Below, piece after piece: positions 5,505-37,113 of a stretch of DNA of 64,000 nucleotides (its first letter is position 1; every line of letters begins with the position of its first letter). Made by a program: the position numbers and the translations under genes. Under the pieces are notes generated by a model. The model searched no databases. It had not been told where the DNA came from and saw only the letters and a program-made list of their open reading frames with translations. Source of the DNA: Adineta ricciae (taxonomy: Eukaryota; Rotifera; Eurotatoria; Adinetida; Adinetidae); the NCBI GenBank assembly GCA_905250025.1, contig CAJNOJ010000140.1, positions 124,001-188,000 of the forward strand, read 5' to 3'.

Positions 5505-7550
5505 ATGAGTTGGCTGAGACGAACAATCGCTTATCTCAGTGATGGTAGGAAGAACAAAGTAACAACTAATTCTGTTAGAGATTTTCGTATCGTATGGCTT
5601 GACAAGTTCATTGATGTTGCTAATGATTCTCGTTGCGCGAATACTGTTGCACAGCTGCAAGAAATCGTTGAAGATGTTCGGACATTTACAGATGTTAACG
5701 AATGTATCGAGTTTATTGATGGTCTGAAGGAAGAATATATATTAATGGTCGTATCTGGTTCACTTGGCGAAATGATCCTGCCGTCGATTCACGATCTTGA
5801 TCAGATCAAATTCTTCTGTGTGTTTTGTCAAGATCAACAGCGTCATCGACAGTGGGCATCGAAATGGAGTAAAATCGGAGGTGTTGTTACAGATATTGAT
5901 TCACTTTGTAGAACGATTCAAAAAATGATTGAACATTCCGATCAAGATTCAACGCCCATCAGCATCGTCAATACGACGGATGATAAAATCGAGAAAGATC
6001 TCGATCAGCTCGATCGCTCCTTCATGTATTCACAAATTCTCAAAGAAATTATCCTGGATATCGATTTTGGGCCCAGACGTGTTCAGAATTTTCTCACTTA
6101 TTGTCGAGAGAATCTCTTCCATGGCGACATCAAACTGCTTGAAGATGCCAAGAAAATCGAAGAAACCTATCGCAAGCATGACCCAATTTGGTGGTATACT
6201 TCTCCATCATTTCTATATGCTTATCTGAACAAAGCATTACGAGACATGGACCTAGACGTGATTATCCGCATAGGCTTTTTTATACAAGATCTTACAGATT
6301 ATCTTGCCATTTTGTACTTTACACAACACTTTAGTCGCCACGATGGAAAGACATTTTATCGTGGTCAAAAATTATCGGAAGAAAGATTTCAACAAATAAA
6401 GAAATCAACAGGTGGGCTGTTGTCATTTAATAATTTTCTATCTACAAGTACAGAAGAGAAGGTGGCCATGAGATTTGCAGGATCGAAGATGAAGGAGCCT
6501 GGCTTGGTTTCTGTCTTATTTGTTATTCGAATCGGCACGTCGCCGTGTTCGGTATTCTATGGCAATGTTCGCGAAGTTAGTTATTATCCCAACGAGGAAG
6601 AAGTTCTCTTTGGGATGCATTCGGTTTTTCGAATTGGAGAGATCGAAGTTGTCAATGCATCTGATGATTCATTCTGGAAAATCCATTTAACGTTTACCAA
6701 TGATAAAGATGAACAACTGCGTCGCCTAACAGACTGTATTCGACGAGAGACCTTCACGACCGAGAGCGGCTGGTATCGATTAGGTAATCTGTTAAATACG
6801 CTTGGTGAATATTCAAAAGCCGAGCTGGTTTGTGACACAATGTTCGCTCTATCTACAAGACAAGCGGATCTCGCAAGCGTTTATCATCTATTGGGAATGA
6901 TTAAATACGGACAAGGAAAGTACAAAGAATCGATTAAAGCTTATAATACCTCTATTGAAATTAAGAAGAAGGTTTTCTCACCTACGAGTCCATCCTTAGC
7001 TGCTACTCATAGCAATATTGGCGAAGTGTATAACGCACTAGGTCGATATAGTGAAGCATTCTCATCTCATAGTGATGCGCTAAAAGTCAAACAAAGCCAT
7101 TTAGCTGAAGATCATCCTGATTTAGCAATATCTTATGACAATATTGGTTCGGTATTATACAATATGAGCGTATATTCTCAAGCAATACTGCACTATGAAA
7201 AAGCCTTGGAGATTCGACTAAAAAATCTTCCTTCAACTCATCCTGACATCGCACAGTCTTATCACAATCTGGGCTCGGCTTATTTTCGTCTGGAAGAAAA
7301 TTCCGAAGCACTTTCATATTTCACCAAAGCTATTGATATCAAGCAGAAAAGTCTTCCTGACAAACATGTCAGCTTGGCTACTTCTTATAAGAGTATCGGT
7401 GCAGTACATGAACGTTTGCAAGAATATGAGATCGCTCGATCTTACTACCAAAATGCTTTGGACATTTCTCAAAGTGCATCACTGACACAGCACCCGACTT
7501 TACGTAAATTACAAAAAGATTTTGATCGTGTTAATAAAAAATGTCATTAG
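5505..7550 (+). CDS. ADP-ribosyltransferase with shared N-terminal module and TPR repeats
   Basis: A 681-residue single-exon protein. Residues 27-142 form an alpha/beta-looking module (IVWL at 29, GSLGE at 85-89, IHDLDQ at 95, FCVFC at 104, RHRQWASKW at 113) that recurs in the transglutaminase-like gene at 25253. Residues 220-400 carry an arginine-type mono-ADP-ribosyltransferase domain: FYRGQ with Arg286, STST with Ser313, and NEEEVLF with Glu364-x-Glu366, giving the full R-S-ExE triad that uses NAD to modify protein side chains. Residues 435-672 hold about six kinesin-light-chain-type TPRs of about 42 residues, likely for partner binding. No signal peptide is seen, so it is probably intracellular. 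Its stop lies 35 bp from the stop of the convergent DEG/ENaC gene, and an AATAAA (7533-7538) sits inside the last codons. The target protein is unknown. Confidence 0.85.
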   Translation: MSWLRRTIAYLSDGRKNKVTTNSVRDFRIVWLDKFIDVANDSRCANTVAQLQEIVEDVRTFTDVNECIEFIDGLKEEYILMVVSGSLGEMILPSIHDLDQIKFFCVFCQDQQRHRQWASKWSKIGGVVTDIDSLCRTIQKMIEHSDQDSTPISIVNTTDDKIEKDLDQLDRSFMYSQILKEIILDIDFGPRRVQNFLTYCRENLFHGDIKLLEDAKKIEETYRKHDPIWWYTSPSFLYAYLNKALRDMDLDVIIRIGFFIQDLTDYLAILYFTQHFSRHDGKTFYRGQKLSEERFQQIKKSTGGLLSFNNFLSTSTEEKVAMRFAGSKMKEPGLVSVLFVIRIGTSPCSVFYGNVREVSYYPNEEEVLFGMHSVFRIGEIEVVNASDDSFWKIHLTFTNDKDEQLRRLTDCIRRETFTTESGWYRLGNLLNTLGEYSKAELVCDTMFALSTRQADLASVYHLLGMIKYGQGKYKESIKAYNTSIEIKKKVFSPTSPSLAATHSNIGEVYNALGRYSEAFSSHSDALKVKQSHLAEDHPDLAISYDNIGSVLYNMSVYSQAILHYEKALEIRLKNLPSTHPDIAQSYHNLGSAYFRLEENSEALSYFTKAIDIKQKSLPDKHVSLATSYKSIGAVHERLQEYEIARSYYQNALDISQSASLTQHPTLRKLQKDFDRVNKKCH

Positions 7551-7585
7551 CTGTACTTCATATGTACGTTTGTTTTCATTTGATA

Positions 7586-9245
7586 TTATGCCGATGAGGA
7601 CTGCTGATCTCTATTCAAAAGTTGGTAAACTTTGGATCGAATGAGGCGATAGATCATTTCGGCAATTTCCATCAGTGAAAGAAAACTGATACCAATCCAT
7701 AAGCCGGTTTGACCACCCACGTTAGATAGGAGATCTACAGGAGAGATTGATGCTGATTCTATGAGCGTTTGAGCTCGAGTAGTTTCACTGACCACTTCTA
7801 AGCCAACATAGTTTTGAGAAAGATCAGACTGCCATGTAGTCGACCAATTAGTGGGTAAGTGTACACCGAGTGCCTCAACTTTCGTTTTAAGATCATCTAG
7901 CAACCATGGTGATGGAGCCAGAAGAGATGATAGTTTTGCTGTGAATTCCACAGTATTGCATTCTGATGGACATGTTGGACAGTTTTCTATCCATAGATCA
8001 TAGTTATTATTTATCAAGTCAAGTTCTTTTCTATAGCAAGTATCATTTTCATTACACACGGGCGCAATTATTACTTTATCGGTACCTGGTACCGCAATAT
8101 AACGAGCGGTCCATTCAGTCGGATCAATACAACCACACATTTTGTAACTGAAAAGGATATTGATCATTAAACATGACATACAAAGTCAAAGTGTAAACAA
8201 ACTTACACATACGCTTGTATACAAACTGTAGCACATATAAACTGTTCGTAAGCATAACTACCGTTACTGAAATGATTGAATGCAACTTGTAGCGCATATG
8301 GAACTTCAGTACTGCAATCGGAATAAGGTGCTGGCAAGTGAGTCTGTATTGTTTTAGTATAAACCATTCGGTGGAGTCGTCCTGGTATGAGATATTGTCC
8401 CTTCCATCGCATTGTAGGTATCTGATCATTATCGTGGATTTGAACTATCATTCCAACTCCTATGATTCGTTAAACGAAAAGCAAAGGATAAGTATACTAA
8501 CATGCAGATCGTTTTACAGACCAGAGGACCAGTATGGAACATATTGATTACTGTGTACATAAAAATCCAGTTGTAAAATTCCCCAAACACCATTCTCAGC
8601 CAAGTGGTATAGGGAGCCATTCCTAATATAAGGGGATTTAGCGTTAAATGTATAACAATTGCCATAAAGCGCATTAGAGAATGAGATGAAATCTTCTTTG
8701 GTGCACTCGAGATTATTGAATGTACACTTTATCAACAGATTGTCCAATGTGAATGAATACTCAGTAACTGATTCATTTCGGTTTAATTTATAACGAACAA
8801 ATTCTTGAATTTGCATCACTTTTCGTTCCGCTAATGTTGAATTTGCTGAATAGGTAATGTTCGAAGTATTGGTATAATTTAAAAAATCGTCCATAAATAG
8901 ATCATAGCGAAATGGCGAATAATTACAAATTGAAACAGCCGGGAAGTTCTGAGTGGGGTTATCCACAACTCCTATTGATACTTGAGTAGGGTATTGAAAG
9001 AAATTTAGAATCGATTCTGTGATAAAATAAGTCATAACACCAGCAAAAATAATTGTACTTATCGTCCAAAATATTCGATTTGTCACAGTCTGACTACGTG
9101 CAATACCAGGAATACCGTGAGTCGACGTATTTAAACTAAACTCTCTAATGATTGATCTGGCACGTTGACGAGAAGTTTCAGCTTTGTATGTATTTCTATC
9201 GGGGGAGTTATTCATATCCATATCGGTATTTTCGAGATTCGTCAT
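7586..9245 (-). CDS. DEG/ENaC-family sodium channel subunit, copy A
   Basis: Predicted amiloride-type/peptide- or acid-gated cation channel subunit of 512 residues. Exons are 9245-8522, 8459-8207 and 8147-7586 (introns 62 and 59 nt, phases 1 and 2). Seen: the cytoplasmic THGIPGI gating motif, TM1 (about residues 60-85), the post-TM1 signature FPAVSICNYS, a large Cys-rich ectodomain with N-glycosylation sites, the CGCIDP segment, and a pre-TM2/TM2 segment GLWIGISFLSLMEIAE holding the G-x-S selectivity filter. The ATG at 9245 is chosen because the frame upstream only offers TTG. It is paralogous to the gene at 22034-23715 with identical intron positions and phases. Gating stimulus unknown. Confidence 0.9.
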
Positions 9246-10382
9246 ATCCAACGATTTTGATTTCTAGAAGAAATAATATGTGCTTGATACTCAATTCGAG
9301 GATCGAATGCACTCCCCTTGAATAATACAGATTTATTTATTTGCAGAAAGAACGAGCACGGCGCCTCAGAGTTAGACAAAATCGAATCTAGATTTATTTA
9401 TGCAAACAAAAAATATACAAAATCAATAGTTTGGTATAGTGAAAAGAAACAGTCTATTTCGAATAGGTTTTTTTCTACAGAACGGCATTGTTTCATATAG
9501 CTGACAAGTGGTCTCTATTTCAATTTTGAATGACGAGTGTGTGCGTTCTTATTCATCATATGGTTTGCAATTCGGTTCGTTATATCGATAACTGAAAAAA
9601 ATCACTCATATAAACAAATGGCAATGCTAGTGTTGTGTAAATATGGAGAACGAGTATGTGATTCATCTTAGGCGCTAATAAACAACAAAATCAATGAATA
9701 CCATGATAACACGAAAACACATTATTGAAGTCAAAAAGTAGGTTATGACCCTATTGTTAGTCATTGGAGTGACATCACATTGCCGTATCTGTAGACCATG
9801 ATTTATTGAATAATTTCACAAGTACTAACTTGACTATTTTGGACTGTAATTGCCGTGATTGTTATCTGCAACTCTTGGTAATTTATACAGATGATAAAGC
9901 GAAGGAGAAATGAGGATTGAACAAGTCTGTATTCGTTTAGGATGAACTTTGAATACAATTAGTCGATCGTTGGAGTCTTAGTCTCACTCTTGGCAATGTT
10001 TGCATTCAAATAATCGAACGAGAGTCGGTGGTAATCGTATCAGAAATCGTTTAATAAAATCTAGCAGTTTATTATATTTCAGTATACACAATGAACATTT
10101 CTCAAATAACGACATCAAACATAAATTCTTTTTTAGAACTTGAGGACGTCAGAAGGTCATAAGTGAAATATTTCTTTTTCTTGTTCTTACCCTCACAACT
10201 CACTGAATTTCTCGTTTCTATCAAAAGAACATATATCTTCGTCACATTCACCATCGTCAACTTGCGTCCTTGGAATAGAAGGTGTGTCATAGTAAATCAT
10301 ACTTCCCAACGACATACATTCATATGAATTCGATTAATTATAGGAATATAGACGCTGTCTTGTCGACATTTTTCAAACACGA
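9246..10382. other. Intergenic, no gene seen
   Basis: AT-rich divergent spacer between DEG/ENaC copy A (-) and the Ly6-like gene (+). No convincing coding or RNA signal. Confidence 0.55.
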
Positions 10383-10847
10383 ATGATGGTTTCTCTTGCT
10401 TATCTAATGATCTTTTCTGCTACTATTCAACTTGTATCATCCCTTCGATGTTATGGATTTGTTCGTAGTACTGATACTAGTTCATCGACCGTTGGCTTGC
10501 AAGATTCACTTTATATACCAAATGCATGTATGAATCAGACTTGTTTGTGTATTAGCTTTGTATTTCAATGTATCGTCAATAATACTTTATGTACTACTAA
10601 GCAATTGCAGCATGAAAGTACTGTTTGGACCTACGCATTGACCGGAGTTGGTACATGTCAGCAATTGATTCAAAGTTCAATTATAAAAAATCTTACCTGT
10701 TGCTATACGGATTTATGTAACAATCAATCAGTAAATTCTATTCTAACAACAACACGCAATGTTGCGATAATGCCATTGAATAATAACACTTCATCGCTTT
10801 TTCGTTCAATTCTGCTACTTCTTTTACTTGGTCTTTGTGTTATTTGA
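10383..10847 (+). CDS. Ly6/uPAR-like three-finger GPI-anchored protein
   Basis: A 154-residue single-exon protein with a signal peptide (residues 1-20), then LRCYGF and ten cysteines ending in the hallmark CCYTDLCNN, which defines the Ly6/uPAR three-finger fold. It closes with a Ser/Asn-rich spacer and a C-terminal hydrophobic stretch (about 138-154) typical of a GPI-attachment signal. The start has two adjacent ATGs at 10383/10386. Invertebrate relatives modulate ion channels or septate junctions, and the next gene upstream is a DEG/ENaC channel, but a functional link is only inference. Confidence 0.8.
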   Translation: MMVSLAYLMIFSATIQLVSSLRCYGFVRSTDTSSSTVGLQDSLYIPNACMNQTCLCISFVFQCIVNNTLCTTKQLQHESTVWTYALTGVGTCQQLIQSSIIKNLTCCYTDLCNNQSVNSILTTTRNVAIMPLNNNTSSLFRSILLLLLLGLCVI

Positions 10848-12179
10848 TGATAAAATGAGTTCTTGACTTATGTTCAATCCATTGTTTTTTTTATACAAAA
10901 GATCGTGTCAAAAGAAAGATTTGTTTCGTTTTCACTGATTCTGCTTAAATAACTTGAAACAAAGTACGTTTCAAATGTGTGTCTGTGCTCGATTTTCATT
11001 TATTGTTATAATAAATTCGTACTTTAGGTAAACTATGGAATGATACTAATGTCAAATACCATTGATAGAATTTGTGAGTAAAATAATTTCTGGATAATGA
11101 TATTATATACGTGGACGAGCCTGAACTAGACGTTCGTTGTTGATCTTGATTATTAAACCAAGTAATGACATTTAGCAGCAAACGTTTTGTAGGCCATGAC
11201 TTTGTTGACGTCACACATCTGACCGGCAATCACAAACACATATTATCGGAATTGAAGAAAAATTTGTTGTCAAACTCGTCAAGACTGAGAGTATAACAAA
11301 GAGCAATCAAGAAACGAATGTCGTGAACCGAAAGGGATTCCCAACTATTGAGCTTACGGAGTCAGCTAATCCGGATATCATCGTAATTAATTGTTCGACA
11401 GACGCACTCCAAATAATACATCAAACGAGCTACATCGTTGTCCGCAATGACAAATAGTATGTCCAATCACTTTCATTTCACATTCGCTGTATTGAAAGTG
11501 TGATATTTTCAAAGCTATGAATGTAGAAAACTGATTAAATATTACAAAGGCGTCGTATTTTTATAGAGAAAAACGCGTCCTTTCTAGAGTGTATTAATAT
11601 CACGCATAATACAAAGTCGTCAGATGACATGTTCCATATAGAATCATGCTTTGAAATTTCCAACACTATATTGTGTTACTTCTTCACGACATACATATCT
11701 TTTCATATAAGACTCAGTCAGGATTATAAGAAAAAACATCAGAATTATTCACTAAGTTTCTTTTACTTTCTAGTTGGAAAATTCCACTGCATTTCTTTTT
11801 ATAATATCAGCTGTCAAAACGGGTTTTTTAATCAGTGAGACTCATATTTTTTTTACTTTTGTTTATTTCATCATAGTTTCCAGGTACCATGTCTGTCTGC
11901 CTTGTAAATCCCATGCTACAATTCTTCGCCTCTATGTGACTCCGTTGCGGAAGACACTGCCACTAAGTACTTATGCTATCTTCCCTTCTAAGCAGTCTCA
12001 AAATTAACGAAGTTTTATTAACAAAAAATATTTATAAAAACAACAACAATCACCGGATGTGCTTAGCTGGAATAGCAATGAAAATTTTGTTTCAATGAAA
12101 ATCTTTTGATAACACCAACTTTTCATATCACATATCTGCATAGTATTTTCATAGAGCAGAGCTTGATCGGCGCGGGTGT
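10848..12179. other. Intergenic; one Met-less open stretch
   Basis: Downstream of both flanking convergent genes. A + strand frame of about 80 codons near 11208-11458 is open and coding-like in composition but has no ATG and no recognised motif; it may be decayed coding sequence. Otherwise AT-rich with nothing supported. Confidence 0.4.
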
Positions 12180-15100
12180 TCATGTCCATAAGGACATTGG
12201 CGCAATGCCTATGCAGAAAATAGAGAACATCAAAGGATACTAAATAAGAACGAAACAAACCTTCTTGTGTATTCCACTTAGGTTTAATATTATCATCAGC
12301 GAGAAAATCTATTGGAAATTCCACGAGAAAACCTTGAATCTGTTTGCATTTATCATATGCCTAGAAAAAAATCGTTTTCTAATGCAACAAATTAGTTTAA
12401 CGCAATCCTACTGTATGAGGATCTGTTTCTTTCAATTTGGATTGCTTGTTATATTCTTCAATATCAGCGAATCGCCTTATTTTATTTGTTGGTACAGTAT
12501 TGAAAACTTCTTCATAGATTTCAGTGTTCTTCTTTGCTATTTGACAAAAATAGTTGTACAGTTCATCTGAACATGGATCGTCGACGTCGATCTTGTCATC
12601 ATCTTTTATACCTAACACCTGTCTTAGAAATCAAATATATAAAAGACGTACGATGCAAGATTAAAATAGAAAGACGATAGAAACCTGAATAATTTCTTTC
12701 GCCAAGTAGAGCAGAACACACCGACTTTCTCCGATCGTCCATTCAAATGTGAATCAACCATTTCAATATCATTGACAACTAAGCATACTTCCGAATCTCG
12801 AGTTCCTTGAAACGAGCGATCGTTAATATTCGCCGATCCGCAAATACACATTCGATCATCAACAATCATCAACTTCGAATGAACGTAAATAATCTCCGTT
12901 ACCTTCAAGGAAAACGAATGAAATTCCCAAATTCGACACAATTCACTTACTAAACTACCCATCAGTATATCCCAATTTCGCATTCCATTAAACGTCACAT
13001 ATTGTCCAGGTTCCTCAATTCCTATCAGAAGTTTTTCTTCTAATTATATGTCAATGTATACAAATGTACTAACCATATCGTTTTAATCTTTGATAGAGTG
13101 ATTGATCATCTTTATTTATCGATCTCATAATATAGTAAAGCTCAGCTTGAACTGCATTACTATTGGCAAAGCCAGGTAACAATGGTAAAAGAATAAAGAT
13201 TCGAAATTTTTCGTGATTATTATGTGCACGAATGATACGTTGATAGAGCGCTTCACCGATCTCATTCTTTATTGTATCATCTTCAGCAATTGTGACAAAA
13301 AATTGGTTCTAAATGTTGTTTTTGGCAAAGTCGTTAAATTTTAATCGACTTACTTCGATGTAGATAAAATGTTCAGCATTTTCAATCATGTGAATATAAG
13401 CAGTATGAATTGAACGTTCGACTTTCTCAATTCCACATGACCAAAACGAAGCTGAACGAACGCATTGAGCATCGATGCGAACAGGAGGACGATCACCTGG
13501 AAGAATTGCTTGAAGCATAGATGGATCAGCTAGTCGACTATCATCATCGGTTTTTGGAAGAAGATAAGGATATTTATCATTGAAACGAAATTTATCTGCC
13601 TGTAACGAAAAAGATTCATTTTATATGAAACATCTCGATGAATAATAAGAACAACTTTATGAATATTCCATCGTTGAATGAAGTGTCTGGCACAATCTCT
13701 TGCTGCTTCACCTGAAACAGCCAATACTTCGTCATGCCATGGCATGCGGGGCGCAAGTTTTCGGTCGATATAATCTATTGAAAGACGAAAACGAAATGAA
13801 GAAAATTGAAATTAAGATCAGACGAAACCTTCATCGTATTTTTCGACGAACTCAAAATCTTTTTGATAATAGTTTGAATAATCTTTGCCCAAAAAGAACT
13901 GACATTTACTATCCGCAACCGGCGTAACGCCAACAATTGGTTTCGGTCGTTCGTCGGATACTTCATCGACTTCTTCATCAGATGAATTCTCGTCGTCATC
14001 AGTACTTTCCGCTTTTTCTCTCTAGGATTCAAATTCAACAATCAAATCGGACATGAATGCTAGGCAGAACTTACTTTAATGAAACGTTGCCATTTATGCT
14101 CATGTCGACGTTTTTTTCTATCTTCTGTATCGTCTGTGTCGCCGAATATTTCCGATAACTTTTAAAATACGAATTTGAGAAATAAATTCTCATTTTCTTT
14201 TGTTTCACAAAGTCTTACTAGATGGTGCTCATTCGAGTTTGTTGCCATCTCATCAGCTGTTTCGATAGCAGCTTCTTCTTTATGTGATTCTTCTTCAGGT
14301 TTTTGAGCTATTTCTTCTGGAAGTTTCAATTCCGTGATATTCTCATCACTCAAATCAACCAATCTATCCTCAAGAAAAAATAAGGCAAACTTTCATCTTG
14401 TTATTAAACTAACCGATAGTCATCTGTATCCCATCGTCCCCAGCAAAGATCAATGCCACCAATAAAAGCCAATCGTTGATCGATGATCACAGTTTTCTCA
14501 TGGTGAGAAAAGAGAAACGACGATTCAGTGCCAGGTAATATTCGATGGTCAGGATGCCGAATGACCTTTAATCTAGGAAGTTAAATAAATCCAAATATTT
14601 TTGCTAGATAAATTACTTTGATATTTTTCTTCGTTGGACTTCTCGATAGCAATTTTCTTTTCGTATGTAAACTATTCAAACCAACAACTTTCACGATATC
14701 TTTGAAGATCAACACGTACACACGAATGCCTTCTTCCTATATTTATCTTCTTTACAAAAAAATAATAGAATATATGAAGGTAATGCTTACTGCTCGCTTG
14801 CCAAGAAGATGGTCCAATCGCATGGAATCATCATGAGCTGGACGAACTAGCATGATTTCAGGTGAAAGCCACCAATCGCTGATGAAAATTTCTTCACGTG
14901 CTGATAAAATCGCTTTAGCTAACGCTTCCATATACGATTGACCATTAATAAACCATTGAGCATACTGCTGTTGTCGTTGTGGTGCAAATGAGTCAAATAG
15001 GTGATTTTGCGTAAAGATCGATTTCTCTTTCATTTCCATTAGGCCGTCAAACCAAAGATTTCGCTCGTCTTCGCCTCGACATTTAACAATCATTTGACGC

Positions 15101-16275
15101 TGTGAGTTTTTTATGCGAATTCCTTGTTTCGTTCGTGTTTTTCGAAATGTTCGATCAAGCGAAAAATCTTGATCAACAAGCATTGGAAAACCGATAAGGG
15201 CGGAGTTCAGTGTCATATATACAACATACGAATCTTTGATAACAAACCATTTGTCTTCGTGGAAAACTTTACATGGGTCACATAGAAGTGGAATGCGAAT
15301 TAGAATTGATCGACCACGATGATCATCATTGGATCGTTTCGATAGGTTTCCTTCTCCGAAACTTTTTCCTAAACCTTCAACAAATGTCAGCGGACTAACT
15401 CGAAGAAATTTTCTCTATGAAAACAGAAGTAGCCAATAAAAAGTCCCAGCGACAAACAAAACTTACCATAGCAATATGTTCACGAAAGAATGGATTTTCA
15501 AGAACTTTGCTGAGATAGTTTTGTAGCATTTTCTAGAAAAACAACGAACATGTTTTGTAGAAAACAATGAAAATAAACGTACGCATCTCTCGTTGATATT
15601 TCTTTCGTTGATAAATCCAATGCGATCGTTCTGAGTAGGAAAACAGGGATAATCTTTGTGATCGATAGATGTTCGCGAACTGAAAGAGTCACTATCAACT
15701 ATTTTGTATATGACTTCGAATTGTACCTGTTTAAATCAAGTCGAGATTTTTTAAATTCCAATTTAATAGAATCTCGAAGGGCATTATGAAGCTCAGCAAA
15801 TTGTCTATAACGTCTTTTGATCGTCCATTCATATGTAGATCCATAACGAAGAGTTATACTATACCTACACATCGATTCGACGAAAAATTCGGTCAAAATC
15901 TGCCAGTTACTTTCGTAAAATAAACTTACAAATACGGATAGAGAAATTCAGTAACGGCATTGTATATTCTTTCTGCTTCTAGTTTAATAACTTGAACTGT
16001 TTCATCACGTGCAAATGTTTGGTTACATTGCGAGTAGATTTGTTCCAACGAGCACGCATCACTCATTCGACGTTCTTCTGTAGTTTGTTCAGGATACGGT
16101 AAATATTCCACATGCCTTTGTGTAATGTGATCTTCAAATGAATTCGATCGGACATGTATCTTCAATTATACACTCAATGACATCACTTACTAGCGGTTAA
16201 AGTTAACCCGACAACATCCTCCATCGATCGCACAATCCCATGGATACTTTCTGCTGGATGAACTTCAGTATTCAT
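12180..16275 (-). CDS. Phospholipase D (PLD1/2 type, PX-PH-HKD), 18 exons
   Basis: Hydrolyses phosphatidylcholine to phosphatidic acid; membrane trafficking/signalling enzyme. Exons (5' to 3'): 16275-16191, 16131-15930, 15864-15727, 15679-15583, 15532-15467, 15414-14791, 14736-14617, 14565-14414, 14363-14219, 14158-14075, 14021-13829, 13774-13656, 13599-13354, 13308-13074, 13021-12685, 12622-12412, 12360-12261, 12208-12180. Introns are 45-65 nt. The total is 3183 nt, giving 1060 residues, close to mammalian PLD1 at about 1070. Domains: PX (about 90-190, [10 protein letters not shown]), PH (about 215-330), HKD1 [10 protein letters not shown] (His466, Lys468, Asp473), an acidic loop (about 490-600), and HKD2 [10 protein letters not shown] (His883, Lys885, Asp890). 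The last tiny exon restores the C-terminal MSLWT end that animal PLDs need for activity. Looks fully functional. Confidence 0.92.
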
Positions 16276-17106: not shown

Positions 17107-17940
17107 TTATGTCAAATGTTCGATCTTCTTGTTAATGAAAGACGTGTCAGCACGAAAATATTCGTAAATGGCAAGAACTGAACAAGCTGCACATATATGC
17201 CAAACGGCATGTAATTGAAACCATGAATGCGGCCAGCAGACAATCTTCGATGCATCCAATTGACCTGAGACGACTCCGATGATGAGTGATAGCGCACCCA
17301 AGCCAAACCATTTCAGTTGCTTTGCTGTTATCGATTTTGATCGCAAATGAAAGCCTTCCGATAAGACAAATATAACAATTAGTATTGTGGTCAATAGTTT
17401 TTCTTCGTTATCGTATGATTGTGGATAGTAGATATCGCTAATAATCCACAAGATGAAGCCATTTGCCAAGAAAATCAACGTGAATAGAAATGTTTTGATG
17501 TTCGCATGACGAATTAAACTGTAAAAACTAATGAAAACAATAATGAGCCACATACCAGTTAGATCAAGTCGATGTCCAAGTTGACAACGACATGCATGAT
17601 TGAGCCATGAACCGATGGCATGTGCACAATTTGCTAATCCATTAATCAATGATAAGATTGTATTCTTTGCACGAGCTTTTTGCTGACCTTCGATGGCTTG
17701 TACTAGCATGTAAAAACCCACTGCGAGAAAAGCAAAGTCAGATAATGAATTGCTTCGTTCTCGGAGAAGACTAGTCGATCGATCATATTCACAGAACGGT
17801 ATTCCATCTATTCGCTGCTTTGTACTCGATTCAAAATGGTGCCATGGCGATTTGCCGGTCAGATAGCTGTCAAGCACAAGAACCGCCGCAAATAAAGTAA
17901 TGAATATCAACACAAAACAAATACGTACAAATATCATCAT
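17107..17940 (-). CDS. CREST/alkaline-ceramidase-like membrane hydrolase
   Basis: A 277-residue multi-pass membrane protein with about seven hydrophobic segments. Motifs fit the CREST superfamily (alkaline ceramidases, PAQR, Per1): CEYDR, SNSLSDFAFLAVG, GSWLNHAC in place of the usual G-x-GS-x3-H, DLTGM, and a C-terminal HSWFQLHAVWHICAA that gives the paired histidines for zinc. The likely reaction is hydrolysis of a lipid amide such as ceramide in an internal membrane; the substrate is inferred. The ATG at 17940 is chosen because the upstream extension starts only at TTG and an AG acceptor (TTTCATAG) just before suggests a 5'UTR intron. Single coding exon. Confidence 0.75.
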   Translation of the reverse strand: MMIFVRICFVLIFITLFAAVLVLDSYLTGKSPWHHFESSTKQRIDGIPFCEYDRSTSLLRERSNSLSDFAFLAVGFYMLVQAIEGQQKARAKNTILSLINGLANCAHAIGSWLNHACRCQLGHRLDLTGMWLIIVFISFYSLIRHANIKTFLFTLIFLANGFILWIISDIYYPQSYDNEEKLLTTILIVIFVLSEGFHLRSKSITAKQLKWFGLGALSLIIGVVSGQLDASKIVCWPHSWFQLHAVWHICAACSVLAIYEYFRADTSFINKKIEHLT

Positions 17941-18272
17941 AATAGTCCTATGAAAACTAACATATTCTTTCAAAGCAACAGGGATAGATAAGATAAAATT
18001 AAATATGTAAGATACCGTAGCGAGTTTTTCACGTACAGGTGTTTTTATTCCCTTGTCTGAAAGAAAGGGTTATAGCGTCATAAATACAGTGATGAAAATG
18101 CATAAAGTTTGTTTGTTTGGTTTCTTGCATAAGCCAATCAGATTGCAGCATATTATGAATCAATGAAATTTACCTATAGTCATCAAAGATTGACCACCGA
18201 CGAGGTAATCGAAGTGGAGGATTTCGAATCCGGTGTCAGTTTCTCGAAATTCTAATTAGCTAGTTACTAATT

Positions 18273-18460
18273 CGCTTTTCTGAAAGAAAGGGTTATACAG
18301 CGTTTGAATGCTGTGTTAAAAAGCCTACAGCCTGTCCTATCCAATCAGAAATCAGCACTTCTAAAATCAATGAAATTAATCGATAGTTGCTAGAAAATGA
18401 TTACCGGTAGGGTAATCGAGGTCGAGGATCACGAATCCGAGGTTAGTGTTGCTTAATTAA
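18273..18460. repeat. Second, diverged copy of the left-end repeat unit
   Basis: Starting with CTGAAAGAAAGGGTTAT near 18279 and ending with GTAATCGAGGTCGAGGATC..CGAATCCGAGG near 18413-18443, this repeats the order of motifs of 18057-18240 at an offset of about 221 bp. It is a diverged direct repeat within the left end of the element. Confidence 0.6.
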
Positions 18461-20124
18461 TTATTAGCTTTTCATTAACTAGCCACGACTTATTAACATC
18501 CATTTCCAGAGTAGACCACAGGATTTCTGACGTCGGGAAATTCGAATTTGAGGATGAATTTCGTTTTATTGGCTGAGCCTGGGCTTATTCCTTCCTCTTT
18601 ACAAAGGAGATATTTTTCTTTATCTGTTCTAAAATCTTTTGTAGAAGATAGTGAGCTGAACGCTATTCACAGACGTCATGTGTACAAAGATAGTAGCTCA
18701 AGAACTTACACGAAAATATCTAATGCATTGTATATAATGATGTTTCTAATTGAAGAAATCCGAAAAAGTGATATGAGCTTATAGTATCATCTTTGCTTTG
18801 TAGGCTACATACATCATGTCCTTTCATGGGACTTTAGTAGAAGTAGTTCGCAAAGCGATATAGTCGTCGGTGGAATTCCATCTTAGTAATTACAGACGCG
18901 TGGACGGTGGAAACAGTATTCTGAACACATGCAACACTATGAAAAATGAGATTTATCACTGTCTCAACGAAAGTCAATGGTCTTTGAACGAACACAATGG
19001 ATGTGTTTTCGAGCTTCGAGAATAGAGATTGCGCATTATCAGCACTTCAAATTGAACAGAGCAATAGAATATGTACTGTAAACTACACAGTTACGAAGGG
19101 TTTTGATAACTTCGATCAGAGATCGACGAACGACTAGGCGTTTAAATGCTAGATTAATCCTAAAGTGTACGCTTAGAATAACCTTGCCAAGCCTCCGATA
19201 ATTTTGAAAGGGATTTGACGAATGAATATTCCTCAATGAAAATATTCGACAAGGTATCATTTTGTTGACAGAAGAGGAAAGAATCGGATTATCGCTGGAA
19301 GATACAGGCGAATGTTCAAATGTTTCAAGTAGTCTACTGTATATCATCCGTCTATGAGTGACTTATTAAAGCATTTATGCAAGTTTCAATGCGCGTGATA
19401 TTAAAATAGAAAAACAGATAACAAAGGTCAATTGTTGGCCGTCTGACTAGCCGTTGAGCGATGAATTTTCCAGTCAATATAGTTAGTGCTGGAGAATTAT
19501 CCACTGACAAATGGCTAATCGGCCTGATTCCTAGAAATACTTTTGCATCCTATTGATTCTAGTGTGTGACATAGTGCCATGATTCAGTTGAGCACTAGTA
19601 GCAATCGCAGTGCGTTTTGTCTCTTTCGAAGTCTCTGAATGTGTTCAGCGTTCGAAAAAGTCTTTCAGAAAAGGGTCAGCGAATCCAAAGGATGAGCGTT
19701 ACTTGTATTATATGAATACGGTTATACATTGTGTAGAATTATACCGGGTTATATCAAACTCTTGTAGTTCAAGACTAAATTTGACGTAAACAATAAATAT
19801 CTAATTAGTGTTGATGTTTACTGTACGCACTTAACCATCAGAATAAATTTCTTTACAAAAGTACTCTACTTATTTTAACTGATAATTTCAATAAGTTGCA
19901 AACCACTGTACTGCTTTGAAGGAATTCTCAAAAGACTCTAATCGACAAGTAACGCGGCCTAGTAGCCGCTAAACCCTCTACTGAAAGGATAGTATTAGAG
20001 CGCTACTATTCGTCCAAAGAGAGAAAAAAGTTGTTTCAGTTGAACGATCTGATCATTTGATAGTTTGTCAGAATGTTTTACTTAGACCAATTTCGATTCC
20101 TGAAATCTTCTGAAATTATAACGC

Positions 20125-20816
20125 CTAGTCGTTTGTCGGCCTCTCTCCGGTCGACCACTCACAGCTAGCCGTCGGTACCTAATAAGTGTTTAATGATATT
20201 TTCATATTAAAAAGTACCTCGTTCTTGTTGAGTCCGTCTCTAGCAAAGTTGCCGAAATTCTTCGCAACTTCATGACCTACAGTATATCTTTTATTATCAT
20301 TTTTAGTTGAATATGTCGATGATCTACATAGTTGTTTCTTGAAGCTCGAAAAGATGTCATATATATATACCTTAGAAAAATGATGGCCACTTTGCGACAG
20401 TCTTATAAATCTCACTTTTCAACTAATTTTCAAAAGAAACAACTAGTCGTTCGTCGGCCTCCCTTCGGTCGGCCACTCACGGCTAGCTGTTCCCATGCGT
20501 ACTCATTTTACTATCTTAACTTCATTCGGACGAAGACGCGTTCTGCAAATGAGCACATTTCGGAAAATCAATTCATAATCCAAAACTTAGAAGCTGTACA
20601 TAGCTATATGATTCTCAGGAAAAGGTTTCAATCTTCTCTCCACCACGAGGAACCTTAAATGGCTGCCAGCTATGTTCGTGCAGAACAACGATTAACTTCT
20701 AACCAAGAAATCTTAAAGCTCTATAAAAATCACAAAGTTTGTTCTTAAAAATATGATTCTGCAAATCGACGACTAGTCGCTCGTCGGCCTCCCTCCGGTC
20801 GGCCACTCGCGGCTAG
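20125..20816. repeat. Three dispersed 44-bp palindromic motifs
   Basis: Cores at 20125-20168, 20443-20486 and 20773-20816, each exactly 44 bp, each bounded by CTAG at both ends, each holding GTCGGCCTC..CCGGTCG in the middle. The arms (CTAG-TCG-..-GGCC against GGCC-..-CG-GCTAG) can pair as a hairpin of about 17 bp with a few mismatches. Spacing is 318 and 330 bp, and the DNA between copies is not similar, so they are iterated motifs, not a simple tandem array. Confidence 0.75.
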
Positions 20817-21180
20817 CCGTTACATGTAAATTTTCACTCTTCCATTTAGTCTACAGCCACTTTTGAAAGTAGTCCATTCATTCTTTTCTATTCCATCTTT
20901 AAAAGTCACCCTCTTTATGCTACTGTAACTCTCGAAGACAACACCTGACAAGCGAAACATTATTTTAAATGACTGGCATCAGATGATATCCCTATAGTAT
21001 AGCTGTTTCTAAAAGTGTGTGATCTCATTAATATGCTTATGACTATGGAGATCCGCTGATCGGACGTCAGTCAGCTATTACATTTTGCTCTACATATTGC
21101 CGCTTAAAACATTATCGCCTAAAAAATTGATCCTTTCTCGCAAAAAACGGGTTAGAAAGTGTTCATGAAAAAACTAACCT

Positions 21181-21460
21181 CGGATTCGAGTTCCTCGGCC
21201 CCGATTACCCTTCAGTCAACCCTTACTCGACAACGAAAAAAATTTCATTGCTTAATTAGCTAATTAGCTAATGAGGTAATTAGAATTTCAGAAATCTAAC
21301 AGCGGATTCGGATTCCTCGACCCCGATTACCCTTCGGTCGACCCTTACTCGACAACGAAAAAAATTTCATTGCTTAATTAGCTAATTAGCTAATGAGGTA
21401 ATTAGAATTTCAGAAATCTAACAGCGGATTCGGATTCCTCGACCCCGATTACCCTCCGGT
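21181..21460. repeat. 122-bp tandem repeat, two full copies and a partial third
   Basis: CGGATTC recurs at 21181, 21303 and 21425, a spacing of exactly 122 bp. Copies 1 and 2 differ at about six positions in the first 45 bp and look identical over the remaining 77 or so (TCGACAACGAAAAAAATTTC through TCAGAAATCTAACAG). The third copy stops after about 36 bp, where the sequence turns into the right end of the element. The unit is the reverse complement of the segment at 18201-18240 and 18413-18443. Confidence 0.85.
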
Positions 21461-21522
21461 AAAACTTTGTCCTCCACTAGGGTCACTGAATAGTCACTAT
21501 CGAACAGTGATGTGAAAGAACG

Positions 21523-21549
21523 AACCAACCAACCAACCAACCAACCAAC
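21523..21549. repeat. (AACC)n microsatellite
   Basis: About six to seven consecutive AACC units inside the right end of the putative element, mirrored in the left end by a looser GTTT/GGTT run. Confidence 0.85.
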
Positions 21550-21612
21550 ATCAACTCGTTTTTTTTGTAATACCTGCTCGACGCATAACCCTCCTTTCAG
21601 TAGAGGGAATAA

Positions 21613-22033
21613 GCGACGATAATTATAAGCAACAAAGAACGAAAGGAAATTTGTTCAGATGTAATATTTCGATGTTTTGGATAGTCTGATTAAGTGGGAG
21701 CGCCTGGTTTTTATCTCTTTTCTTCTTTGAAATGAAACACCCAAGTCATATAACGTTTGCTTTTCGATTTTACAAGTATATGACATCATAAATTGTATTT
21801 ATGAACACATATACATCATTGGTTGGAAGTTCATGTACATTCACGATCGAAATGTAACGTTGACCTGTAAGGACTGAAAGTAAATCTACTTTTTCAAACA
21901 AAATGACATTTGAGTAATGCAAAATGAAGGACATATATAGTTAAAACGAAGTTCATTTATTTGTATATGTAAAAAATATGTAATAACGTTTGCAGTTTCG
22001 GTATGATGTAGTTTCCAGAGAATAGGATGATAT
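21613..22033. other. Intergenic between element and DEG/ENaC copy B
   Basis: AT-rich 3' flank of the channel gene; nothing further supported. Confidence 0.5.
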
Positions 22034-23715
22034 TTAACTGAATAGTCTTCGTACACGCTGAAATCGGTGTCGAATCAATCGATAGATCATTTCAGCAATT
22101 TCCATTAATGAAAGAAAACTTATGCCAATCCACAGACCCGTCTGACCACCGACATTAGAAATAACATCAACAGCACTCATAGAAGCTTGTTGAGTATAAA
22201 CTTCCACTCGAGTGGACTCACATACAACATCAAGACCAACATAGTTGTGTTCAATATCAGCAAGCCATGTCTGCGACCAATTCTTCGATAGTGGAATCGT
22301 AGTAGATTCGACGAATTCCTTTACATCTGTCATATACCATGGGGTGGGCGATGCAACCGATGATGTTTTAACAACAAATTCATTAGAAGTACATTCTAAA
22401 CCACAATCATCGGCGTATTGACTACTGATGGAATCTGAACTTCGAAATACATCAGCCGCTTTTGAGTAACAGGCATCAGATACGTTACATAGTTGAGCAT
22501 AAATAACGTTTGTAGTGCCTGGCAAGACAATGTAACGTGCAGACCACTCATACGGGCTGACACAACCACATTGCTGATACCTAGTGTACGAAGATAAACA
22601 TGCATTTTGAAAAGATTACAATGAGAATACAAACGTATATGTTTGTATGGCAACCTTAAAACATAATTCTTGTGAATAATCATATTGAATGCCTGTGTAT
22701 TGGTCATACAAAGCTTGTAATCCAGGTGGTGACGTTTCACTGCATGTTGTATAAGGTGTAGGCAGAAGAGTATAGGTCTTCTTACTATAGCCAAATTTGT
22801 ATTTCCGTCCTGGTACTAAAAAGGTATTGACTCTATCAATGAGTGGCATTTGTTTATTATCGTGGATCATAGTGACAATTCCTACACCTGCACAAACAAG
22901 ATGTAATCGTTACATTATTACTAGAAAAGATCGATTCTACCGTCTGTTAAATATGGAACATATTGATGACTGTGCGTGTACAAGCCTAATTCTAATACAC
23001 CACTTTTACCATTTTCATTATTATAATGCAATCCGCCATTGTTAATGTACTGGGATAGGGCATTGAAAGTATAGCAGTAACCATAAAGAGGTAACTGGAA
23101 TCGTACAAAATCAGCAGCAGTACAATTGATACCGTTGTAAATACATTTAACTAGCATTGACTCGAGTGAAAGGTATAAATCATTCAACGACTCATTTCGG
23201 TTCAGTTTTGCTTGTAAGAAATCGATTATGTACGCTCCTTGGTTTCTCGTGAATTTCGTTGTATTTGTCGTATTCGTTAAATTGAGCGAATTCGTGTAAT
23301 TAAGGTAAGGCTGTATAAATTGATCGAAGTGGAGAGGCGAATAGTTACAAACAGTGACTGCTGGAAAAGATTGTGGCCATTGTCCAACAAAATCTACCGA
23401 TGTTTGTGTCGGATATTGAAAATAAGCTAGAATGGCTTCAATGATAAAATAGCACATAATACCGGTGAAGATGATAAATGAAATTGTCCAAAACAGACGA
23501 TTTTGTATACTCTGACTTCGTGCAATACCTGGAATTCCATGCATGGACGTATTCAAGCTGAATTCTTTGATAATTGGTCCTGTATTGCGCATTTTGGGAT
23601 CTGGCTTTACGGCTTCGGGTGTGATTGGAAAAACAGTTGCTATTTGGTTCAAAGCACTGTCCATTGGCCTTAGCTTATTTTTGGACGAAAAAGTTTCCGT
23701 TGCAGATGAAAGCAT
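22034..23715 (-). CDS. DEG/ENaC-family sodium channel subunit, copy B
   Basis: A 524-residue paralogue of the channel at 7586-9245. Exons 23715-22941, 22887-22635 and 22580-22034; introns of 53 and 54 nt interrupt at the same codons and phases as copy A (after the YLTDG/YWSSG position, and just before the CGC segment). Seen: HGIPGIARSQS before TM1, FPAVTVCNYS after it, Cys-rich ectodomain, CGCVSP, and GLWIGISFLSLMEIAE with the G-x-S filter. The N-terminus is longer than copy A and rich in charged/polar residues. The ATG at 23715 begins the open frame. Likely a subunit of a homo- or heterotrimeric cation channel; ligand unknown. Confidence 0.9.
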
Positions 23716-25252
23716 ATTCGTTTTCGTTCTTTGCTTGCAGAAACCGGTGAATGTGCCAATTTTGATACGTATTTACGAATGTTAATTCATGTTATGCTTG
23801 CCTTAAATAGATTGAAAGCATATAGAAGACATAAATGTATTTCGTGCTTTTTCAATACAAGCACAGTGTAGGTGTTCTAAATATTACCGGAAGGCTTTTG
23901 AGTATGAGTCAGAAGAAAAATATTGTTTTTGTCATGTTCGTTTCTTAAATATAATAAATATTTGGTCATGCATGCAAATTTAATACACGAGGTAAAGCTT
24001 ATGTCGAAGTTTATTCTACAATGATCTAGACAGTGTATTTATTCATTCTGCGACGAAGATTGTATTTTACGTACAATCTTGACATAATTGAGAGCATCAG
24101 TGTTTCGATCTTTTTAAAATGCTGTGGAATAAGGATATTTTGTGAAGTTTTCAACAATCAATGAGTGCATATGACTGGAAATAAGGTCACCAACCGCCAA
24201 TTGGCTAGCGATTTCTTTTATACAACCTGTGTCATAGGTTTGAATGACTTGTAAACTATCAATTGTATTTACTGAATAGAGCAAAAATACTATATGATCA
24301 TCACTGTTATTACCGAAGGCCTACTTTTTTTTCTCTTAATAAATCAACTGAATAAAGAAAAGCATTGCATCGGAGAGAATAAGTTTGACCTGTTTTTCTC
24401 CTTCATGAATGGATAAACGATGTTCGAAACCTTTCGTTTCATTGATATTTCTCCTCACTCTTGTGCGGTGAAGATTGGCAAATGTCTAGGTCACTTTTGA
24501 CCCATATCATCTGGATATTACAGATACTAGATTTAAAAACAATGATGGTAGCTAAAGGTTCGTATCCGAAATGAAATAGTTCTAATTACATGTTTGTTTA
24601 TCATAAAAAATTCTAACAGTCGAATGATTTATCGAGTATGTTTTATTAATTATGATGTATACAAGAATATGCTTGAAACATGAGCGTGTTTCGCAGTTAC
24701 CTATATCACCGGTGATTTTGAGATTTCTCTTCAGTTTAGACTCTGTGCTGCAAATGACTCGCCTTTCGTTTCACCCTAGTGCAAACTGATATATCTATCG
24801 ATAAAAAGTCTAAAATCACTGGTAAACTCCCACAATTGTTGAGACGTGTGGCTCGATGAATTAAAGTGGAGTTTCACACACATGCATTCAAGCCAGCCGA
24901 ACTTTTCGATTATGTCATAAACGAAAACATTGTCTTTTTCACCGAAAGAAGCAGAAGGCAACGCGTATCTTAACAAGGTTTGTTTTTCTCTCTTTTTAGA
25001 TGTAATTCTTTCTCATTCTTTCTGTTTTTTCTTGCTTGCATCGACTGGTAAATTTTATTGTGTAATTTTCAACGAGCGACGAAAACAGCAACAGTTACTT
25101 CCTTTAGACAAAAAAGACTTCTTCTGTTCGTATTTGATGAAAATCTCATTGTGTTTTCAGACATATAAAAACTTCGAGTAACTTAATTTTTAGATTCGTG
25201 AGGATCACCAAGAAGTATTATCATTTCAACGAAAAAAATTTTCGAAGACAAC
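23716..25252. other. Divergent intergenic region with possible 5'UTR intron
   Basis: Between DEG/ENaC copy B (-) and the transglutaminase-like gene (+). No gene is supported. A donor-like GTTTGT near 24977 and an acceptor TTTTCAG near 25160 could bound a 5'UTR intron of the gene at 25253; this is tentative. Confidence 0.4.
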
Positions 25253-27634
25253 ATGGCGCATGCAAGTGGTGCAGCCGAAACGGTTAAAGAACCACGGATA
25301 AGGGCGACAAATTATCAGCTAGTTTGGTTAGCGCATAATATTGAGAAAATACAACAAGATTTTACTCAATCGTTCAATGATTTACAAAGTATGACAAAAT
25401 CCATGGAAGTATTCAGTAGTGCTGATGTACTAGTGAATCATATATTTGAAAATAATCGAAACAAAATCATTTTGGTGATAGCCGGAGCTCTGGGAGAAAA
25501 TACGATACCTATTATTCACGATGCACCTCATCTTGATGCTGTCTTCGTCTTCTGTCTTAATCGAAGTCGACACGAAAAATGGGCTAAAGATTGGACAAAA
25601 GTCGCGGGTGTTTATGACAAGATCGATGCCGTGTGTGAAGCAGTAAAACAGCGCTTACAAAGTGAAGCTTCAAAAGAGCCTCCACAGATTACCCCAGAAA
25701 CAGATCCAATAAGTGATCCACCTCAGCCACCACGACGACATAGTAATCGGGTTAAATCGACTACTCTCGATGATCAAAAACACGAAAAGAGAAGAAAACG
25801 GTCACACGACCGTCGAGATCGATCACACGAGACCGTTCGACCCAATGATGACGTGTCAGCAACCACTATTCATGCAGCTTCATCTGCCGATTCGATAATG
25901 ATGGAAAAGGAGATGCCCAAGGATTCATCTAAACAGGATGACGACGACCTTATTTCATTGGTAAAGTTGCGGTTGCCACCGAAACGAGATGCATCCAGTT
26001 CGAAACCTTCATTACCGACCACGTTAGACCAACTGAGGGAAACTCTAATTACTATAACAGAACGAAAATTAGGTACAACTACTCTTCGCAAGAGTGATCC
26101 TCACGGTCCAACATCATCAGCGAGTAAAGGTGTATCCGATCGATCGGAACATACTCTTATGGAAACTATTCGAGAAGGCGTAGACACCAAGCCAAACGAT
26201 ACTAACGAATTAAGCAAGATGTTTAATGACTTGAAGCAATCGCTGCTTGATACGCTTGCACAACAACAACCATTGTTATTGAAAGAACTGATTAAAGAAA
26301 CGGTTGAAGAAGCGATTAAAAGTCAAGAGAAACCAATGGCATCTACTACTCCTAGGACGACTGCGTTGCCTACTCTTCGACGAACAATTACGCTAGCTTC
26401 AGTTCCAGAAGTACAAATCACTGCTGATTCGAAGAAAACCCGTACTGATGCTGCTTTTCGTCAACAGCGTGCTGCTGTTGTTGCAAATAAAGATTTTCGT
26501 AATAGGGTTCGGCAATGGTCAACAGTAACCTCAATGGCTGATCTTGTATCGAACATCAAAGCATGTGGTTCGAATGATTTAGAACATACATGGTTACTAT
26601 TTTGTTGGATAGGTCAAAATATTAAGTATGCATTGCACTGTAATAACAATGCCGCGGAAACTGTTTTTCGAACAAGACAAGGCGTTTGTCGTGGCTTCGC
26701 TAGTCTCTATCACGAATTTTGCACATTACTCGGTATTCAATGTTTTGAAATAAGTGGATTTGCTAAAAATAATTTCGTGCAAGGCTTTGTCGAACTGAAG
26801 CAGTCACCTCATGCATGGAATAGCGTTGTAATCGATGATCATACCTACTTAGTCGATCCAACGTGGGGTGCTGGTGGCCGTGATAATGAAGTAACGCTCG
26901 AAGATTTCTATTTTCTGACACCACCGGAGGAATTTATTTATTCACATTATTGCCTCGGAACACAATTACTCGAACCTGAGATAACTATCGATGAATTTCT
27001 TAGTTTGCCAGTTATGAAATCGTCCTATTACCAATTTGATTTGAATTTATTATCGCCAAAGCAAGGTTTTAATCCCATTAACGATAATCTGTTCAAAGTA
27101 TCAGTTCGAACACCAAAGCATGTCGAATTGACTGCCAGTTTGCAAATCGGCCATGAACAATATCCACGTAATCTGCACACATTATGTCAACGAGATGAGA
27201 ATAATCCTGATATATTCAACTGTTTCTTTGCTCCACCTGTCGATGGCCTTTATAATGTCGATATCTACGCAAAGACCAGTGAAGAAACATCCTATCAAGG
27301 TGTTATCAACATGCGTCTACAGGTTTCCAATCTGATGAGTAGTTTTACTTTTCCCCAAACCTATTTGACTTTCTCTCAACACAACTGTATTCTAATTCAC
27401 CCATTACAACGTCTTGTGTACAAAAACGATGAAATACTAATTCATATGATTATACCGAATGCCAATGTGATTAAAATTGAGAATGGCGATTATCAAATCG
27501 TTCCCGATAAGGATGAATATAAAAAGGGTGTTTTGCAGAAAAAAATACGTGTTCAAGGAAATATTAAAATTTGTGGCCGGTGGGATGCAAACGCTGATAC
27601 TATCTCAGTCATCTGTATATTTCACATGGCTTAA
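25253..27634 (+). CDS. Transglutaminase-like (kyphoscoliosis-peptidase type) protein with shared N-terminal module
   Basis: A 793-residue single-exon protein. Residues 21-135 repeat the N-terminal module of the ADP-ribosyltransferase at 5505 (LVWL at 23, GALGE at 78-82, IHD at 88, FVFC at 98, RHEKWAKDW at 106). Residues 140-390 are a charged, Ser/Arg/Pro-rich linker, probably disordered, with a short helical LLKELIKETVEEAIK stretch. Residues 440-560 form a transglutaminase-like domain with a complete triad: Cys479 in RQGVCRGF, His520 in PHAWNSV, Asp535 in VDPTWG. The C-terminal part (about 600-793) resembles the beta-sandwich repeats after the domain in KY-type proteins. It could act as a protease or cross-linking enzyme; the target is unknown. 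AATAAA lies at 27652. Confidence 0.82.
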   Translation: MAHASGAAETVKEPRIRATNYQLVWLAHNIEKIQQDFTQSFNDLQSMTKSMEVFSSADVLVNHIFENNRNKIILVIAGALGENTIPIIHDAPHLDAVFVFCLNRSRHEKWAKDWTKVAGVYDKIDAVCEAVKQRLQSEASKEPPQITPETDPISDPPQPPRRHSNRVKSTTLDDQKHEKRRKRSHDRRDRSHETVRPNDDVSATTIHAASSADSIMMEKEMPKDSSKQDDDDLISLVKLRLPPKRDASSSKPSLPTTLDQLRETLITITERKLGTTTLRKSDPHGPTSSASKGVSDRSEHTLMETIREGVDTKPNDTNELSKMFNDLKQSLLDTLAQQQPLLLKELIKETVEEAIKSQEKPMASTTPRTTALPTLRRTITLASVPEVQITADSKKTRTDAAFRQQRAAVVANKDFRNRVRQWSTVTSMADLVSNIKACGSNDLEHTWLLFCWIGQNIKYALHCNNNAAETVFRTRQGVCRGFASLYHEFCTLLGIQCFEISGFAKNNFVQGFVELKQSPHAWNSVVIDDHTYLVDPTWGAGGRDNEVTLEDFYFLTPPEEFIYSHYCLGTQLLEPEITIDEFLSLPVMKSSYYQFDLNLLSPKQGFNPINDNLFKVSVRTPKHVELTASLQIGHEQYPRNLHTLCQRDENNPDIFNCFFAPPVDGLYNVDIYAKTSEETSYQGVINMRLQVSNLMSSFTFPQTYLTFSQHNCILIHPLQRLVYKNDEILIHMIIPNANVIKIENGDYQIVPDKDEYKKGVLQKKIRVQGNIKICGRWDANADTISVICIFHMA

Positions 27635-37074: not shown

Positions 37075-37104
37075 TACTCTGGAGAATGACATCAACACTA
37101 ACTG

Positions 37105-37113
37105 CCTTTTATA
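37105..37113 (-). promoter_or_regulatory. TATA box of the molybdenum-carrier-like gene
   Basis: TATAAAAGG on the minus strand, 31-39 bp upstream of the chosen ATG at 37074. If it works as a TATA box, transcription begins almost at the start codon and the 5'UTR is nearly absent. Confidence 0.5.

Follow-up and report, generated by a model that had tools for sequence, protein, structure and literature searches.

A shared N-terminal module on ADP-ribosyltransferase-TPR proteins and on a transglutaminase-like protein of the rotifer Adineta ricciae, and a candidate receptor family built on it

The stretch analysed here, a window of 64,000 nucleotides from contig CAJNOJ010000140.1 (C140) of the rotifer Adineta ricciae, encodes two proteins with similar N-termini and different effector domains, which raises the question whether a single module has been joined to two enzymes and, if so, what kind of family it belongs to. 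The first protein (P0001, 5505..7550, + strand) is a single open frame of 681 aa. Its N-terminal module, residues 27-142 (5583..5930, +), is followed by an arginine-type ADP-ribosyltransferase (ART) domain at 6189..6695 (+; PF01129, E 6.5e-6; PF03496, E 5.1e-6) and by a TPR array of the 42-residue kinesin-light-chain type at 6756..7484 (+; PF13424, E 5.8e-64). Among PDB sequences the TPR region matches engineered TPR proteins first and then kinesin light chain chains, the latter with a best E of 4.6e-22. Within the ART domain, YRGQ (6357), SFNNFLSTS (6423) and EEEVLF (6594) carry the R, S and E that we take to be the motif of the arginine mono-ART family; by motif, P0001 thus possesses the residues required of an arginine mono-ART (PF01129) and is predicted to have transferase activity.

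The second protein (P0002, 25253..27634, +) is a single open frame of 793 aa in which the module, residues 21-135 (25313..25657, +), was recognised by BLASTP and by hhalign to the ART module. It is followed by a charged linker, judged by eye to be disordered (25670..26542, +), by a transglutaminase (TG) core at 26552..26848 (+; PF01841, E 3.9e-9) and by a KY-like Ig domain at 26990..27355 (+; PF23265, E 5.7e-14). The ART profile finds no match in this linker or in that of the homologue on contig C143 (L031, L032). GVCRGF (26681) and HAWN (26810) lie inside the PF01841 match and VDPTWG (26852) just past its end; these are presumably the carriers of the Cys-His-Asp triad, and by motif P0002 therefore holds the triad required of the PF01841 core.

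In order to decide on the homology of the two N-termini, pairwise, shuffled and profile comparisons were used. BLASTP aligns residues 26-159 of the ART protein with residues 20-151 of the TG protein (28% identity, E 4e-18). A local alignment of residues 27-142 with 21-135 scores 175, compared with a mean of 26.7 (sd 4.6, maximum 50) over 2000 shuffles, whereas the remainders of the two proteins score 50, inside the spread of their own 200 shuffles (mean 39.6, sd 5.0, maximum 56). The hhalign comparison of the ART-type modules (20 sequences, from 19 loci and the window's own module) with the TG module pair gives a probability of 99.8% (E 2e-30). The N-terminal module common to the ART and TG proteins is a real homology. 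An earlier note on this DNA had proposed one module on two proteins whose remainders are unrelated, and had named the profile-profile alignment beforehand as a check; these results bear it out on each point. Its list of conserved blocks stands in part: all 20 sequences of the ART-type alignment share W, C, S, G, H, C, W and K, but the Glu of the G-S/A-L-G-E block and the Arg of RH vary in a 29-member alignment. In the latter, which includes standalone forms, one Trp is invariant while a Ser, a Gly and a second Trp are conserved to 90%. The module of the ART gene has a 94% identical counterpart on the homologous contig C143, where the homologue of the TG gene is 91% identical in the module.

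The module, about 115 residues long, was next compared with known domains. No Pfam model is convincing over either N-terminus, and matches to the 29 module members are scattered, the best (9e-4) being found in one member. PDB sequences yielded nothing below E 0.12 to the 29-sequence profile and PADLOC nothing below 0.006, while the best NCBIfam match (E 3.3e-5) concerns a family matched by 2/29 members with 23.6 of 133 bits, far below its cut-off. The earlier note had suggested a receiver- or TIR-like fold. At the sequence level this is not supported, given a hhalign probability of 0.1% to CheY (one typed CheY sequence, a weak test) and the absence of both receiver and TIR among the 25 of 31 Pfam families listed for the 29 members. 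The note knew of no established name for the module, and no Pfam model covers it; a searchable profile now exists for this unnamed domain. No module was confirmed in bacterial or viral sequences among genome contigs (597 pattern matches) and viral contigs (75 pattern matches), nor was there a match in the plasmid collection. Among the titles and abstract beginnings listed from the open-access literature, none concerned a module-ART-TPR family, and the accessible portions of PMC9503650, PMC8195603, PMC7159879, PMC3482391 and PMC2861651 do not describe one.

The genome, 130 Mb on 1033 contigs, was then surveyed for further copies. Arrays of TGTGGG, considered as a bdelloid telomere repeat, are present on 6 contigs, but the control was a rotation of that repeat and makes the comparison uninformative. 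With the ART-type module as query, the best 150 of 638 candidates were scored and 150/150 match (window module included); with the TG module, 150/150 of the best 150 of 565 candidates do. The union of both query lists, merged by hand, comes to at least 172 module places, and the counts that follow are lower bounds. At least part of an ART region is carried by 164/172 of the listed places; five short places (C298, C803, C101:248066, C259 and C822) are counted among the 172 but not among the 164. An ART match (ART query, best 150 of 784) lies 373-424 bp downstream of 111/172 listed modules. The other 61 places comprise 2 TG genes, 40 and 13 places with ART, the locus L005 and the five short ones. 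Each of the 40 further stretches downstream of modules has a match to the ART region, spanning fewer than 150 profile columns in 9 cases, so that truncated copies are among them. Of 14 other module loci, 13 are followed by ART on the same strand (partial in 3), and the remaining one, L005, is truncated, its sole ART match being on the opposite strand. The idea of a module spread over several effectors is thus not upheld as the main picture, since the listed places are nearly all of ART type and TG is represented by one homologous pair and one case of neighbouring genes.

Two apparent exceptions to this architecture were rejected. ART without module seemed to occur at 39/150 listed ART places; of 20 examined, 16 hold the module by profile (3 partly), and in the remaining four (L104, L107, L109, L111) the sequence is cut by N just upstream. 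Likewise, a 3469-residue frame with a module (contig C220) adjoins a run of N. In the stretches read, the module is an integral part of the arginine-type ART family. By pattern, the ART motif retains R in 43/46, S in 42/46 and E in 43/46 loci; all three parts are present in 37/46 and the motif is incomplete in 9/46. The motif is thus largely kept and most copies could be enzymes.

TG cores (PF01841) match at 17 places in the genome, some of them fragments, and the module is in frame with TG at 2/17, the window and its homologue on C143. Nine of the other 15 were examined upstream and seven are without module, including C542, which ends at a contig edge (818 bp). At C5 and C2 a separate module gene stands about 450 bp upstream of the TG gene on the same strand; the two module genes, of 224 residues in C5, are 88% identical; as the two copies are homologous, the adjacency counts as a single event. 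A tree of 61 rows places the TG modules within the ART-type clade (99/96), at the end of a branch of length 1.64. An ART gene was hence probably the donor of the fused module, although the long branch calls for caution in reading this tree. Seven other TG frames (L121-L127) hold an MGC start, possibly a lipid-anchor signal, unlike the module-bearing TG.

Two further module queries added 51 places beyond the 172 listed; among those read, four (C153:35223, C416, C281 and C331) are again ART. Eleven genes (L122, L123, three in L131, L132-L135, L140 and L141) were read as standalone module frames of 222-471 aa with possible introns to further exons; the frame of L134, which reaches the edge of its stretch, is listed whole as 259 aa. 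Eight standalone sequences form one clade (99/98) in the same tree, and profile comparison of seven standalone modules with the ART type gives 99.4%. In L131 (contig C130) three standalone genes follow one another downstream of the module-ART gene C130:55731. The frames of L140, which contains an N, and L141 are 440-471 aa long, and by eye their longer second half may be a second, diverged module copy.

In order to see which part of these proteins changes, selection was compared among module, ART and TPR. Median omega over paralogue pairs, which are not independent and whose TPR value covers part of the TPR region, is 0.29 for the module (65 pairs) and 0.31 for the ART (67 pairs) compared with 0.52 for the TPR (67 pairs). 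Between window and C143, omega is 0.19 (module), 0.43 (ART) and 0.43 (TPR) in the ART gene and 0.35 (module), 0.43 (linker) and 0.20 (part of the TG region) in the TG gene. The module is constrained, on the TG protein too. Sites with pN above 0.3 number 2/120 and 1/120 in the module in two clades compared with 5/42 in the TPR in each.

From the first part of each array, 75 TPR units of 42 residues were collected in 34 loci, with the register set from conserved TPR residues. Their median identity is 0.857 over 58 within-gene pairs and 0.619 over 2,717 between-gene pairs; inside the young clades M and Q the contrast all but vanishes (0.81 within and 0.81 between genes in M, 0.83 and 0.81 in Q). 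At positions 2, 5, 9, 12 and 13, within-gene pN/pS, a counting method applied to the TPRs of this family alone with pairs that are not independent and repeats that may recombine, reaches 1.66 in clade M, 2.02 in clade Q and 2.38 in the remaining loci, compared with 0.47, 0.90 and 0.46 at the unit's other positions (P for the excess, by permutation of positions, 0.008, 0.006 and 0.0004). Over all pairs these ligand positions display 1.55 versus 0.48 elsewhere in clade M, 1.36 versus 0.72 in clade Q and 0.68 versus 0.38 in the rest. The set was picked after the variability of these same units was known and the published list was read afterwards; according to the part of Magliery and Regan (PMC1261162) available to us, positions 2, 5, 9, 12, 13, 33 and 34 are the most variable of the TPR and lie on its concave face. 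When the ligand set was slid over 29 offsets, the canonical register was best (pN 0.442, next 0.377). Furthermore, the seven most variable positions of one set, tested in another, give a pN/pS of 1.97 (M to Q), 0.86 (Q to M), 1.41 (rest to M) and 1.09 (rest to Q), compared with 0.56, 0.50, 0.44 and 0.78 for the other positions. In light of within-gene pN/pS and of what is known of TPRs, the TPR groove diversifies and would therefore likely recognise changing ligands. The groove is likely to act as the sensor and the ART as the effector, with the module serving as a conserved part for docking or signalling. The module had been described beforehand as a sensing or docking part: sensing now appears less likely for it than for the TPRs, given its purifying selection and the diversifying ligand positions of the latter, while a docking or adaptor role would be the simplest reading of a module that is constant, is shared with TG and standalone proteins and, in one standalone gene, adjoins TG.

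We propose, with a probability of about one half, that these genes encode a rotifer receptor family, probably intracellular, in which the TPR groove recognises, the ART modifies and the module relays. The C-terminal TPR array, with its fast-changing groove, would bind a partner that is likely to be non-self or linked to damage. An arginine on a target would next be modified by the central ART, and the N-terminal module would relay or hold the signal; its simplest way of doing so would be to bind like modules, whether on other copies, on standalone module proteins or on the transglutaminase. This proposal builds on the homology, copy number and constant order of the domains, the largely kept ART motif, the purifying selection, the excess at TPR ligand positions and the existence of standalone and TG-fused forms. 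Against it count the pN/pS of 0.68 over all pairs outside clades M and Q, the 0.86 of the Q to M test, the similar likeness of repeats within and between genes in these two clades and the motif that is incomplete in 9/46 loci. An immune role is our best guess, and the innate-immunity or stress-response logic imagined in the earlier note gains indirect support, on its immunity side, from the evolution of the TPRs.

The main rival, which we consider rather unlikely, is stress signalling under desiccation or damage, in which the TPRs would bind many clients, the ART would modify them and the module would anchor the enzyme, with no non-self receptor involved. In Adineta vaga, the accessible parts of two studies report ADP-ribosylation as enriched among genes over-expressed under each of the two desiccation conditions compared (PMC10809525) and among genes under-expressed in spaceflight (PMC12220480), and the present family is putatively another candidate source of these gene sets. 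These studies work at the GO level in the parts available, however, and one of them explains the enrichment by PARPs, matches to which are also many in this genome (125, counted exon by exon). Moreover, fast within-gene change at the TPR ligand positions fits changing ligands better than fixed clients.

That change might itself arise from repeat homogenisation together with relaxed surface constraint in a duplicating family, without selected recognition. Repeats that over the whole set are more alike within than between genes would agree with this, as would the several copies that are truncated, contain stops or end at assembly gaps, and variable ligand positions are, in the available part of PMC1261162, a general property of TPRs, which counts against a reading by selected recognition. 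Yet within-gene pN/pS exceeds 1 at the ligand positions in 3/3 sets and is below 1 elsewhere, and the ART and the module stay conserved, which makes homogenisation distinctly unlikely in our judgement. It is improbable, finally, that the module is an enzyme or nucleotide sensor of Rossmann-like or receiver-like fold instead of a docking part. Chou-Fasman averages give a hint of strands alternating with helices, and the top PDB hit of the profile, a sugar-nucleotide dehydratase, aligns with the SGSLG block, although at an E of 0.12. Against this stand the lack of any significant match in Pfam, PDB and PADLOC, the NCBIfam score far under its cut-off and the lack of a CheY match, as well as the fact that ART, TG and standalone forms have a single invariant Trp in common, which leaves no catalytic set.

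The proposed receptor family invites comparison with fungal NOD-like receptors (NLRs), in which, as far as the accessible text of PMC4986451 goes, TPR repeats are internally conserved (85% identity over 100 aa) and the repeats evolve under a selection regime that may resemble that of the TPRs described here; for the latter it is gauged by counting pN/pS, for such NLRs by likelihood tests of positive selection on the repeat surface. Perhaps shared with them are C-terminal repeats that are alike within a gene and change on the interaction surface; shared too are frames of widely varying length with a conserved N-terminal part; our within-gene TPR identity of 0.857 (0.81 in clade M, 0.83 in clade Q) is a different measure from the 85% in that source. 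Unlike fungal NLRs, the present proteins hold an ART in the middle, belong to an animal genome and begin with a module that matches no listed family, and NACHT and NB-ARC are absent among the 25 Pfam families listed for P0001 (E up to 10, in a list filled with TPR families). The ART resembles arginine-specific mono-ADP-ribosyltransferases (PF01129) in its R-S-ExE type motif and Pfam match but differs by its fusion to an N-terminal module and C-terminal TPRs (164/172 listed module places). Similarly, the 42-residue repeats are those of kinesin light chain by type and PDB matches (E 4.6e-22 and weaker), and depart from it by their likeness within a gene, their changing ligand positions and their context of ART and module. 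The window TG protein has the Cys-His-Asp motifs and KY-like Ig domain of KY-like transglutaminases (PF01841 and PF23265), yet its N-terminal part consists of the module and a long linker, unlike most other TG frames with known start (MGC).

A more far-reaching and doubtful, though possible, extension is that these proteins form an animal class of their own, intracellular receptors for non-self without NTPase, with the fast-evolving TPR groove for recognition, the ART as effector and a new homotypic adaptor module linking standalone adaptors and a TG executor. Bdelloids are known for lacking sex, and if this were right a lineage without sex would keep a repertoire of more than 100 receptor genes with a diversifying recognition surface, and an ADP-ribosylating effector would stand where fungal NLRs have an NTPase switch. 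The receptor reading would also provide a concrete target for the question of how bdelloids meet pathogens.

Several neighbouring genes were observed in the window. An ADP-ribosylglycohydrolase gene, apparently of two exons (251-1982, +; PF03747, E 1.9e-5 and 2.9e-52), precedes the ART gene by about 3.5 kb and has a counterpart on C143; it is possible that an eraser stands here beside a writer. Such linkage was rejected as a general rule, since a listed ART or module is found no more than 6 kb away from 2/45 ADP-ribosylglycohydrolase places (58 rows, minus 13 neighbouring fragment rows dropped by hand), namely this locus and its homologue. Elsewhere in the window are a circularly permuted YpsA SLOG family protein (36604-37140, -; PF12694, E 2.6e-53) and a ceramidase-family membrane protein (17110-18069, -; PF05875, E 6e-10). 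Two similar sets of frames, named by eye as DEG/ENaC-type channel-like, are also found on the minus strand, one just after the ART gene (7586-9263) and the other a little before the TG gene (22034-23772).
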